A stretch of 22,252 bases of DNA from a virus: IMG/VR virus record IMGVR_UViG_3300002161_000039, positions 1 to 22,252 of that record, one strand, 5' to 3'. Both the position numbers and the translations under genes were made by a program. Shown here piece after piece: positions 3,768 to 6,591 of the stretch (its first letter is position 1; each line of letters starts with the position of its first letter). A model generated the notes under the pieces. It worked only from the letters and a program-made list of their open reading frames with translations, ran no database searches and was not told where the DNA came from.

Positions 3768-4261
3768 ACGGCGTTCAACTCCTCGATAGTGGTGGCGGCA
3801 TCTACAGACGCTTCAACAGCAGGGTCAGTCGCAGAGACTTCGTGCGTGTGGGCGTCAGCGTCGTTATCGCCCTCGGTCGGGATACAGAAGGCTTGGAAGG
3901 CTGCGTACTTGTAAGCCGCAGACATCGCCTTGTTGCTGGCCTTGTCGCCAGAGTCCATCGCCTCGCCTACCGTGATGACCGTGTGCTTGCTGCCGTCCTC
4001 GGCTGCTACAAAGTCGAACTCAACAGTCAGCGTGACGTAAAACAACGCCGTGCCTTGGCGGTTCTGGCGCTCGATAACCTGGCGGTCAGTCACGCGAGGC
4101 AGGATGCACAAGCCGTGCTTTGACAGCATGGGCGAGAGCGCACCGTACACAGCGTCGATGCCACGGAAAGCGTAGCCCTGTGATGTGTTCTTGCTGTCCT
4201 TGCTGATACCGATCTTGGACAGTTCGGCGGTAACGGCAGCAATCTTCTCGTAGACTTTCAT
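3686..4261 (-). CDS. erf: ERF-family single-strand annealing recombinase
   Basis: A 191-aa protein starting at ATG 4261, overlapping the upstream stop by 4 nt. The N-terminal 130 residues match the ERF superfamily pattern: AAVTAELSKIGISKDSKN, then GYAFRGIDAVYGALSPMLSK, then a strand with FYVTLTVEFDFV, and GEAMDSGDKASNKAMSAAYK before YAAFQAFCIPTE. ERF proteins form rings that anneal complementary single strands, working in P22 for circularisation and recombination of phage DNA. Residues 131-150 are acidic (EGDNDADAHTHE), followed by a helical C-terminus, as in many ERF proteins. It shares the operon with the YqaJ exonuclease four genes downstream. The family call is strong. The gene symbol is by analogy with P22. 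Confidence 0.93.
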   Translation of the reverse strand: MKVYEKIAAVTAELSKIGISKDSKNTSQGYAFRGIDAVYGALSPMLSKHGLCILPRVTDRQVIERQNRQGTALFYVTLTVEFDFVAAEDGSKHTVITVGEAMDSGDKASNKAMSAAYKYAAFQAFCIPTEGDNDADAHTHEVSATDPAVEASVDAATTIEELNAVWKSLSAEQRKTHLPIFSTRKTQLSGK

Positions 4262-4473
4262 TGTGGTTCCCTCAGTTTGGCGGATGCAGCATCAATAGCA
4301 GCGAGGCACTCGGCAAATGCCTGGTGCAATTTGAAAGCGCCTTCGGCTTCGATGCGGTTGAGTTCGTTCAAGCCTTCGATGACGTTGAAGGCTGCGTGTT
4401 CGTACCGGCAGTGCAGTTCCATGAGCCGGTCGCGCTCCTGCTCTTGCAGGATGCGGAAGTCGTCTTGTTCCAT
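4258..4473 (-). CDS. First gene of leftward operon, small coiled-coil protein
   Basis: The start ATG 4473 has GGAG 6 nt upstream and lies about 30 nt downstream of the predicted leftward transcription start. An in-frame ATG at 4572 would lie upstream of that promoter, inside the neighbouring Cro-like gene, and is rejected. The 71-aa protein is highly charged and probably one long helical hairpin (EQDDFRILQEQERDRLMEL, then GLNELNRIEAEGAFKLHQA), ending SAKLREPQ. No catalytic residues are recognised. As the first product of the operon carrying erf and the exonuclease, it may be an early regulatory or host-interaction protein, which is a positional inference only. Confidence 0.75.
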   Translation of the reverse strand: MEQDDFRILQEQERDRLMELHCRYEHAAFNVIEGLNELNRIEAEGAFKLHQAFAECLAAIDAASAKLREPQ

Positions 4474-4510
4474 CGTAGTCTCCAGTAAGCGGGGCCGATC
4501 CCCGGAGTTA

Positions 4511-4538
4511 AGTATACGCATGTTGACTATGGTGTCAA
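4511..4538 (-). promoter_or_regulatory. Leftward early promoter, sigma70-like
   Basis: On the minus strand, TTGACA (a perfect -35; plus positions 4538-4533) is followed by a 16-nt spacer and TATACT (5/6 to the -10 consensus; 4516-4511). Transcription would begin near 4504, about 30 nt before the ATG at 4473. A GGGG/CCCC inverted repeat (4490-4504) lies at the start of the predicted leader. It should drive the leftward replication operon. Confidence 0.7.
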
Positions 4539-4540
4539 CA
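4521..4540. promoter_or_regulatory. Palindromic operator between divergent promoters
   Basis: A perfect 7+7 bp inverted repeat, TGTTGAC, 6-nt centre, GTCAACA. Its left arm contains the -35 of the rightward promoter and its right arm the -35 of the leftward promoter. The 20-bp length and dyad symmetry suit a dimeric HTH repressor such as the Cro-like protein encoded 18 nt downstream. Binding would block both promoters at once. The palindrome and promoters are seen directly; the protein that binds is inferred. Confidence 0.65.
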
Positions 4541-4551
4541 GTCGTTACAGT
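4523..4551 (+). promoter_or_regulatory. Rightward promoter of the Cro-like gene, apparently leaderless
   Basis: TTGACT (4523-4528) and TACAGT (4546-4551) are separated by an optimal 17-nt spacer. The expected start site, 6-7 nt after the -10, coincides with the ATG at 4558, and no SD lies between. The -35 is inside the palindromic operator, so autoregulation is likely. Confidence 0.62.
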
Positions 4552-4557
4552 GCGCCC

Positions 4558-4731
4558 ATGACACCGAAGCAACTACTGAAGATTTATGGTTCCCAAGCGG
4601 AGATCGCTCGGGCGTTAGGCGTGACTCGTCAGGCCGTGCTGCGTTGGTTTAAGGAAAACAAGATTCCTGCCCTGCGGCTGTATCAGATTGAATGTGTGGT
4701 GAAGCCCAATGATCCAGCAGCAGATCGTTAG
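4558..4731 (+). CDS. Cro-like helix-turn-helix transcription regulator, 57 aa
   Basis: The frame ATG 4558 to TAG 4731 encodes 57 residues beginning MTPKQLLKIYGSQAEIARAL and continuing GVTRQAVLRWFKENKIPALR. This is a typical Cro/YdaS-type HTH: SQAEIARALGV as the first helix and turn, TRQAVLRWFKE as the recognition helix, and KIPALRLYQIE as the usual closing segment. It should bind DNA as a dimer and repress early promoters. The divergent leftward operon and the perfect palindrome just upstream fit a Cro- or repressor-type switch. The gene is too short to be picked up by simple length filters. Its 3' end overlaps the next gene by 23 nt. There is no SD, and the -10 lies 6 nt before the ATG, so the mRNA may be leaderless, as for lambda cI from PRM. 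No second (CI-like) repressor is visible in the window. Confidence 0.85.
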   Translation: MTPKQLLKIYGSQAEIARALGVTRQAVLRWFKENKIPALRLYQIECVVKPNDPAADR

Positions 4732-5023
4732 TAGCGACATCTCGTGGGCGTCGCAGGCCAACGTCCGGTATTGGGAGTCGGTAAGGAATAATCCTTACCA
4801 TAAACTCCGGTTAGCCGATGCGTACCTTGCCCGGATCAACGTAGGCGAGTGGTCGCAGCGGGCAGAGCGCACGTCGTGGCTTAAGAACTACGTGGGCGAC
4901 ATCCTCCGCAGCCTGACCGACGTAAAGGAAGCGTATGGCGACCCGCACATCCGTGGCATGGTCAGGGAGTTGTGGGGCGAACCTGGCGTGACGCGATTGA
5001 AGGCAAGGGCGGAAGCGGCATAA
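4709..5023 (+). CDS. Hypothetical phage protein, 104 aa
   Basis: ATG 4709 lies within the last 23 nt of the Cro-like gene, so translation is probably coupled; a GGTGA sequence about 6 nt upstream could serve as SD. The protein is rich in Trp, Tyr and Arg (SDISWASQANVRYWESVRNN, EWSQRAERTSWLKNYVGDIL). It looks helical and basic, with no catalytic or membrane motif. The final segment (VRELWGEPGVTRLKARAEAA) is again amphipathic. I do not recognise the family. Its location between a Cro-like regulator and a nuclease suggests an early regulatory or DNA-handling role, by position only. The stop TAA (5021-5023) lies inside the -10-like sequence of the next gene. Confidence 0.78.
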   Translation: MIQQQIVSSDISWASQANVRYWESVRNNPYHKLRLADAYLARINVGEWSQRAERTSWLKNYVGDILRSLTDVKEAYGDPHIRGMVRELWGEPGVTRLKARAEAA

Positions 5024-5024
5024 T
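4997..5024 (+). promoter_or_regulatory. Promoter of the VRR-NUC gene, apparently leaderless
   Basis: TTGAAG (4997-5002; 4/6 to the -35), a 16-nt spacer and CATAAT (5019-5024; 5/6 to the -10) lie inside the end of the previous gene. The -10 ends 6 nt before the ATG at 5031, the same spacing as at two other genes of this cluster. There is no well-placed SD. Confidence 0.5.
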
Positions 5025-5030
5025 AGGCCG

Positions 5031-5339
5031 ATGCGCTACGCCAAACGTCGGGACAACAACCACACGGATATAGTCGAAGCCCTCCGCAAGGCCAACTTCG
5101 AGGTCATCGACTTTGCCAGCGCCGGTCACGACATCCCTGACCTGCTCGCCATTAAGCCCATGCACGACGGCATGGCGTGGATATGTTGGGTAGAGGTCAA
5201 GGCGAAGGGCGGGCGGCTCTCAGACGGCCAGAAGCGCTTTAGGGGGCTGTTTGAGCCTAGGGGCGAGTGGTACGAAGGCAGGGACGCCGACGACACCGTG
5301 TGCGCCTTACAAGCCCTGTACTTGCAGCGGCTTAAATAA
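5031..5339 (+). CDS. VRR-NUC-type PD-(D/E)XK nuclease
   Basis: A 102-aa compact nuclease. The core reads HDIPDLLAIKP (D37) followed by WICWVEVKAKGGRLSDGQ, giving the D...E-x-K arrangement (E55, K57) and a Gln (Q67) on the next helix. It starts with RDNNHTDIVEALRKANFEV, a helix typical of the VRR-NUC family. Such phage proteins cut branched or single-stranded DNA and may resolve recombination or replication intermediates. Length (about 100 aa) fits stand-alone viral VRR-NUC proteins. All key residues look intact. The start ATG 5031 follows an apparent leaderless promoter and lies 7 nt past the previous stop. The domain call is firm; the substrate is inferred from the family. Confidence 0.88.
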   Translation: MRYAKRRDNNHTDIVEALRKANFEVIDFASAGHDIPDLLAIKPMHDGMAWICWVEVKAKGGRLSDGQKRFRGLFEPRGEWYEGRDADDTVCALQALYLQRLK

Positions 5340-5351
5340 TTCGTTTACAAT
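5322..5351 (+). promoter_or_regulatory. Possible leaderless promoter of the 87-aa gene
   Basis: TACAAT (5346-5351; 5/6 to the -10) ends 6 nt before ATG 5358. The flank TTACAATAGCGCCATGA closely echoes TTACAGTGCGCCCATGA at the Cro-like gene. The -35 is weak (TTGCAG at 5322-5327, 18-nt spacer). There is no SD. Confidence 0.45.
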
Positions 5352-5357
5352 AGCGCC

Positions 5358-5621
5358 ATGAACAACTGGCGCTCACTAAACCAATCACTGAACTTACTGA
5401 ACGAGGGGCAGGTCAAAGCCCTGCTTGATGACGAGATCGTCGGCCAACGTCGCACGACGTTCCTCAAGCGGCTGCACCAACGTTACTGCATCCTGCGAGC
5501 CGCTCGGGAACGCGCTGAGATTTTCAGCGCCGTCGCAGATAAGTCAGATAGTCCGCACCTTCCTGCGGGTCCCACCACACTTTCACCAAGTCTGGATGGT
5601 CAGGCGGTAGGTCTGGGTTAA
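5358..5621 (+). CDS. Small basic phage protein; 3' end overlaps convergent gene
   Basis: An 87-aa frame. The first 54 residues look like a genuine protein (LNLLNEGQVKALLDDEIVGQ, then LKRLHQRYCILRAARERAE). I recall a similar pattern from very short phage proteins with LLxEI and LHQRY-LRA-RER blocks. The remaining 33 residues lie antisense to the last codons of the phosphoesterase and have a different composition (SPHLPAGPTTLSPSLDG). Homologues may end near residue 55, so the tail could be a read-through extension caused by loss of an earlier stop. The function is unknown; the basic helical part suggests DNA or protein binding. It is the last gene of the rightward cluster and converges on the late operon with a 98-nt overlap. 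Confidence 0.62.
   Translation: MNNWRSLNQSLNLLNEGQVKALLDDEIVGQRRTTFLKRLHQRYCILRAARERAEIFSAVADKSDSPHLPAGPTTLSPSLDGQAVGLG
5512..5530. terminator. Hairpin at the tail-to-tail junction
   Basis: A perfect inverted repeat, GCGCTGA (5512-5518), 5-nt loop, TCAGCGC (5524-5530), covers the stop codon of the phosphoesterase gene at the collision point of the rightward and late operons. It would form in transcripts of both directions. No U-run follows on either strand, so it may protect mRNA 3' ends or slow polymerase rather than act as a classical terminator. Confidence 0.4.
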
Positions 5622-6591
5622 TCGTCGTCAGGACGCAGGGTGACAGGGCGTTGTCCCTGAACCCTCGATCCTTCGCATAACGGTCGTAGACCTTATACGA
5701 GGCGACCTTGCAGGCGTGCATGGTAATGCCGCTAATCGCATCCTTCAGGACGCTATAGGCGCTCTCGTGCTTATGCCCTGCCACGTAGATGTGGTCGCGG
5801 GTTCCCATAATGGCAGCCTTCATCGGGCCATGCGCCGGGTTCCAGATAGACGAGCCGCTGTGGTCGTGACGAGCGTTGACCCGCACTTCCATGCCGTTCG
5901 GGAACCGAAGCGCTATACGGGCTTCTGAGGACTTATAGAGGGCGTTCTGCTGCTTGGCTATCCACTTTAGCGGATCGCCCGAGCCTGACCACAGGTCGTG
6001 GTTTCCAGCAATCATGTAGAGCCAGTCGCAGCGACCGACGAACCACTCCGCAATCTTCCAGGCTTGCGAGGCAGACGTACTCTGGTCGGCGTAAAGCCTT
6101 GCTAAACGACCACACCAGTTGTTCGTGGTGTCGCCTACGTTGCAGGCAAACAGCCCCTCGGTCTTGTTCACCAGCGCCGTGTGCCGCTCGATGGCTTCAA
6201 TGTCGCAGCCGTCGTCGTCTACGTGCGGGTCGCCAAAGTGCAGCAGGCCGATAGCGCCGCCGAGTTTGACCTTAATAGGAATGAGTTTGGAGGCTTCTTC
6301 GTGTTCGCGCTTGTGCAGGAACTTACGCTTGCGCTGCTCAATCAACTCCTCGATGGGAACGTCGTCGTCAGGCAGCGGGGTAAATGAGAATCCGGGCTTA
6401 TCTACGTCTTGCTTGACTGCACCCGGCTGATACGTTGACTCAGGGATGATGTAGCCCTTTGCCCTCATCTTTTTGAGCCGCATCATTAGGCTTCGTTCGT
6501 TGACGCCTATCTTGTTAGCGGCTATGGCTCGGATGCCGTTGGCGTCCTGTAGAGCCTTTAGGATTTCATCGTCAGTGGCTTTTGCTTGCAT
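5524..6591 (-). CDS. Calcineurin-like metallophosphoesterase with N-terminal HTH-like region
   Basis: A 355-aa protein starting at ATG 6591 with GGAG about 6 nt upstream. The metallophosphoesterase motifs are complete: GDPHVD (D121, H123), NVGDTTNNW (D154), AGNHDLW (N197, H198), RHDHSG (H242) and GHKHES (H273, H275). These bind two metal ions and cleave phosphoester bonds. Residues 5-50 (DDEILKALQDANGIRAIAA, NKIGVNERSLMMRLKKMRAK) read as a helix-turn-helix DNA-binding segment. A charged linker with KRKFLHKREHEEA follows. A DNA-directed role, such as a Mre11/SbcD-like nuclease or phosphatase acting on DNA ends, is therefore attractive but inferred. It is the last gene of the late operon, 3 nt after the metalloprotease, and converges with the rightward cluster. 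Confidence 0.88.
   Translation of the reverse strand: MQAKATDDEILKALQDANGIRAIAANKIGVNERSLMMRLKKMRAKGYIIPESTYQPGAVKQDVDKPGFSFTPLPDDDVPIEELIEQRKRKFLHKREHEEASKLIPIKVKLGGAIGLLHFGDPHVDDDGCDIEAIERHTALVNKTEGLFACNVGDTTNNWCGRLARLYADQSTSASQAWKIAEWFVGRCDWLYMIAGNHDLWSGSGDPLKWIAKQQNALYKSSEARIALRFPNGMEVRVNARHDHSGSSIWNPAHGPMKAAIMGTRDHIYVAGHKHESAYSVLKDAISGITMHACKVASYKVYDRYAKDRGFRDNALSPCVLTTINPDLPPDHPDLVKVWWDPQEGADYLTYLRRR

Follow-up and report, generated by a model that had tools for sequence, protein, structure and literature searches.

The window, by which we mean the whole stretch of DNA analysed (IMG/VR record IMGVR_UViG_3300002161_000039, positions 1 to 22,252), is a 22 kb virus fragment from a group of freshwater bacterial viruses, and its genes are almost all directed leftward. 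The host is probably proteobacterial, as relatives of the major head protein occur in Burkholderiales, Rhodoferax, Rhizorhabdus and other records; genome contigs searched for host relatives of the nuclease described below yielded none. A rightward cluster, cro-orf104-nuclease-orf87, diverges from the leftward early genes, and the following features were located.

4258..4473, minus strand: first leftward early gene, read from ATG 4473, with SD GGAG and a leader carrying a 5' hairpin at 4490-4504
4511..4538, minus strand: putative divergent leftward promoter, TTGACA-16-TATACT, 11/12 matches, overlapping the cro promoter
4522..4539: palindrome GTTGACTATGGTGTCAAC, whose arms are the -35 boxes of both divergent promoters
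4523..4551, plus strand: putative cro promoter, -35 TTGACT (4523-4528), spacer 17, -10 TACAGT (4546-4551), found in relatives too
4558..4731, plus strand: Cro/YdaS-like HTH protein, 57 aa (PF14549 P22_Cro, E=2e-11; phrog_409), no SD, predicted leaderless
4709..5023, plus strand: orf104, overlapping the end of cro by 23 nt, with neither an SD nor a near -10
4997..5024, plus strand: putative nuclease promoter, -35 TTGAAG (4997-5002), spacer 16, -10 CATAAT (5019-5024)
5031..5339, plus strand: VRR-type nuclease, 102 aa (PF08774 VRR_NUC, E=3e-6), probably leaderless
5322..5351, plus strand: putative orf87 promoter, -35 TTGCAG (5322-5327), spacer 18, -10 TACAAT (5346-5351)
5358..5621, plus strand: orf87, a three-helix protein of no named family, predicted leaderless

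The Cro-like protein scores above the curated cut-offs of both PF14549 (43.9 bits, cut-off 30.2) and PF15943 (42.8 bits, cut-off 30). The nuclease matches PF08774 at 27.6 bits (curated cut-off 23.8) over a partial segment, profile positions 55-98 of 116, and its profile gave no convincing match among PDB sequences. The structure model of orf87 (pLDDT 76) has no significant match in the PDB, and its only relatives are unnamed phage proteins; the first 57 residues of orf87 are conserved and its C-terminus is variable. The last 98 nt of orf87 (5524-5621) are antisense to the 3' end of a minus-strand phosphoesterase gene (5524-6591), which has relatives at 43-44% identity in three Pseudomonas phages, a CI/Cro switch being present in one of these phages. 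The rightward ORF orf104 is a fourth gene, absent from the initial annotation, and is probably translated by coupling. In three relatives (L004, L012 and L018), an extra large ORF (~237-281 aa) is inserted between cro and orf104; it starts V(K/R)VLDLFSGIGGFSLGLERAG and resembles a DNA cytosine methyltransferase. A search of positions 4300-5700 against Rfam returned no family match.

The three putative rightward promoters share a common geometry. As the initial annotation had described, a -10 box ends 6 nt before each of ATG 4558, ATG 5031 and ATG 5358, with gaps GCGCCC, AGGCCG and AGCGCC, respectively, and a -35-like box lies 17, 16 and 18 nt upstream of the -10; all of these elements were found in place. 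The missing SD was likewise borne out: no SD of at least 4 nt precedes the rightward starts, and 16 of the 21 leftward starts have one. The nuclease promoter is embedded in the 3' end of orf104, and the -35 box of orf87, which matches the consensus at 3/6 positions only and is followed by the 18-nt spacer, lies inside the 3' end of the nuclease gene. The -10 boxes of cro and orf87 fit TANNNT, and the nuclease box differs from it at the first base (C). Each of the three ATGs is the first possible start (ATG, GTG or TTG) after a stop in its own frame, according to the ORF listing. When a -10 was defined by A at position 2, T at position 6 and at least 4/6 matches, a definition that ~0.7% of window positions satisfy as a background rate, and a -35 with at least 3/6 matches was added 16-18 nt upstream for a total of at least 8/12, only the starts of the Cro-like, nuclease and orf87 genes carried the pair with a 6-nt gap, out of 241 ATGs on the plus strand and 309 on the minus strand. 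A pattern looser than this window test, applied to the whole records of six relatives, gave scattered weak matches on both strands, some of them recurring, none with a -10 as good when judged by eye.

We collected relatives by scanning IMG/VR, which gave ~75 loci through the nuclease, 50 through orf87 and 79 through cro, plus distant nuclease loci. The initial annotation had proposed spacing conservation in related phages as a check, and the -10-to-ATG distance is indeed kept: in distant relatives of cro and orf87 it stays at 6-8 nt where the flanking sequence has changed. Eight of the 11 divergent cro contexts lack an SD and carry a -10 located 6-8 nt before the ATG, three of the eight being weak matches or having an 8-nt gap; the remaining three have an SD (GGAGG, AGGAGG and TAAGGAGGT) and no near -10. 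The closest relatives carry TACAGT-6-ATG, a second group carries TACTGT-7, and more distant ones carry TATTGT-7, TATCGT-7, TAGCCT-6 or TAAAAT-8, all without an SD; TACTGT and TAGCCT are weak boxes, one of them with a 7-nt gap. For orf87, a -10 stands at 6 or 7 nt in six of the nine listed contexts, with differing hexamers: TACAAT-6 in the main clade, TATGAT-6 in L056, TACAGT-6 in L204/L205/L207, TATTCT-6 in L210/L213 and TACAGT-7 in L217/L220. Most of the contexts with a -10 also have -35-like TTG boxes upstream, and in all six the nuclease stop is 14-18 nt distant. The three contexts that have no box (L050/L051/L052, L055 and L057/L062) are those with the nuclease stop at -4 to +2 nt relative to the orf87 start. 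In all leaderless contexts of cro and orf87, base -1 is a pyrimidine, and a pyrimidine before A is what start-site preference leads one to expect for a transcription start on A.

The nuclease start shows a mixed picture. All 33 distinct main-clade sequences read CATAAT-6-ATG here; this set was picked by its CATAAT junction, yet 44 of 49 in-register loci carry CATAAT. Across the 33 sequences, CATAAT and TTTACAAT are fixed and the bases of the 6-nt gaps vary. The hexamer is partly constrained by coding. Distant nucleases are heterogeneous: L052 has CATACT-6, some TA..GT boxes sit within conserved codons, as do the boxes of L055 and L210, and nucleases with coupled or SD-led starts, which are frequent among the farther relatives, have no -10. 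Compared with shuffles, and with the window context excluded, a strict -10 at 6 or 7 nt is found in 4/10 contexts for cro (P=3/20000), 3/6 for orf87 (18/20000) and 5/19 for the nuclease (3/20000), P values that are optimistic and serve as a guide only, as the contexts share ancestry.

The window contains a single perfect TTGAC-N6-GTCAA, the palindrome GTTGACTATGGTGTCAAC, which is retained in relatives. It is probably the Cro operator, at which Cro would repress the cro promoter. The initial annotation had grouped the three genes into a mini-regulon, but the operator-like palindrome occurs only at the cro promoter and no shared operator was found at the three; shared control of the three promoters is therefore not supported. 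The likeness of the sites at 4546 and 5346 within the window, also pointed out there, is lost in relatives (TACTGTGCAACCT versus TACAATACGGCC), which leaves no conserved repeat, and we rejected the two sites as a shared regulatory element. On the opposite strand, the leftward early operon includes an Erf gene. The leftward message has an SD leader, and the rightward message would be leaderless. The leftward hairpin (4490-4504, minus strand), CGGGG-AUCGG-CCCCG, lies just upstream of the SD, and the leftward early message should start with it. In relatives (alignment A4), one stem pair covaries, being A-U in six and G-C in six of 12 sequences, and the loop AUUGG is mostly conserved.

The geometry can be read directly from the sequence and is unique within the window, and both the spacing and the -10 character are conserved across divergent relatives; the actual +1 positions and the translation mode are inferred. 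The best explanation, to which we give a probability of about 0.72, is a sigma70-type promoter directly before each of cro, the nuclease and orf87, producing nested leaderless mRNAs. The cro promoter would lie in the divergent control region and the other two wholly or partly within the last codons of the preceding gene. Because each -10 ends 6 nt before the ATG, RNA polymerase would start at the A of each ATG, that of ATG 4558 being the predicted +1 of the cro message. The nested messages would be translated without an SD, like those of lambda cI and PY54 cro and cI, and in relatives each gene start would use one of three exchangeable modes, a leaderless promoter, an SD or stop/start coupling. 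No terminator was detected between the genes of the rightward cluster, so a polycistronic message from the cro promoter may also exist alongside the nested ones. We consider the cro message very likely to be leaderless, that of orf87 likely, and that of the nuclease on balance so. The initial annotation had taken the three genes to be separately transcribed leaderless messages: the leaderless part of this is well supported for cro and orf87, in whose distant relatives the spacing is kept and disappears where an SD or coupling replaces it, and it is probable for the nuclease. The genes may also, as it suggested, be used during ribosome stress or very early in infection.

The alternative that survives best, although we regard it as unlikely, is that only cro is leaderless. 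The nuclease and orf87 would then be read on a polycistronic cro transcript, through termination-reinitiation or initiation without an SD, and their boxes would be by-products of stops and AT-rich junctions. In its favour, CATAAT (5019-5024) is the Ala-stop end of orf104 (GCA TAA T) and so contains its stop codon, the cluster has no terminator, orf104 itself lacks both an SD and a near -10, and many distant nucleases are coupled. However, the -10 of orf87 stays 6-7 nt from the ATG while its hexamer takes four forms and the flanks change, and boxes are present where the genes are separated and gone where they touch. Codon usage also argues against by-products: of the 18 Leu residues conserved in the alignment of 33 sequences, only 3 always have the same codon. 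Two of them supply the TTGs in the putative nuclease and orf87 -35 boxes and the remaining one falls within the spacer of the orf87 promoter, whereas most other Leu codons vary. It is far less probable that the AT-rich hexamer is a translation element, such as an S1 or A/U-rich binding site, on a leadered mRNA with no promoter involved. A leadered mRNA would need some other initiation aid where the SD is absent, but the hexamers fit the -10 consensus with a -35 placed 16-18 nt upstream, their exact spacing and the pyrimidine at -1 suit a transcription start, and the same geometry is that of a mapped promoter in PY54. A chance coincidence, picked by a reader scanning many starts for so loose a -10 consensus, is hardly credible given the uniqueness among ~550 ATGs and the conservation in distant relatives, and it is already contradicted for cro and orf87.

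If promoters and ATGs are arranged as the preferred reading of nested leaderless mRNAs has them, one could also imagine self-contained leaderless genes, each with its promoter in its neighbour's tail and firing at the next ATG, an idea that we hold only tentatively and consider rather doubtful. Were it true, insertion, loss and rearrangement between cro and the nuclease could occur without loss of expression, and under perturbed host initiation these genes could respond, in their translation, differently from the SD-led lytic ones. The relatives, in which the same gene would be started from a leaderless promoter, an SD or by coupling, form a natural series for asking in what circumstances, and for what reason, a phage whose genome otherwise uses SDs turns to leaderless initiation.

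As far as we know, only a few phage genes have been mapped as leaderless, and most of them are repressors; the leaderless design would here extend to two neighbouring non-regulatory genes. The cI gene of lambda, transcribed from PRM, has long been known to be leaderless: it reads TAGATT-TAACGT-ATG, with no SD and the same 6-nt gap that is seen at all three sites here. Unlike in lambda, where cro is SD-led (AAGGAGG), the Cro-like gene is the predicted leaderless one at this locus. Within the same HTH family, the sister Cro-like genes L175-L189 and the cro of Methylophilales phage Venkman differ in that their SD is strong and a -10 within 6-8 nt is lacking. In bacteria, a TANNNT motif ~12 nt upstream marks leaderless (TA-led) genes (Zheng et al. 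2011, PMC3160421), the transcription start map of Burkholderia cenocepacia shows an enrichment of regulators among leaderless transcripts (PMC4603805), and in an E. coli study, as it is cited in PMC5230787, three of five leaderless transcripts came from prophages. The genes described here resemble TA-led genes in lacking an SD and in carrying a -10-like hexamer ~12 nt ahead of the start, but they are three near neighbours in one phage cluster, whereas the TA-led surveys concern host genes genome-wide. A close parallel is the Yersinia phage PY54, whose cro and cI mRNAs were mapped by RACE as leaderless, that of cro beginning at the AUG (PMC4488713). PY54 cro (CATAAT-AAATGT-ATG) is likewise a cro-family gene in a divergent control region; it lacks an SD, and its -10, CATAAT, ends exactly 6 nt before the ATG. 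The two systems differ in that two opposed repressors are leaderless in PY54, whereas here the candidates are cro and two downstream genes on the same strand, the opposed leftward gene being SD-led. The arrangement described here is not wholly new: it extends the known design of leaderless phage repressors to several genes, and this extension is conserved and very probably real.
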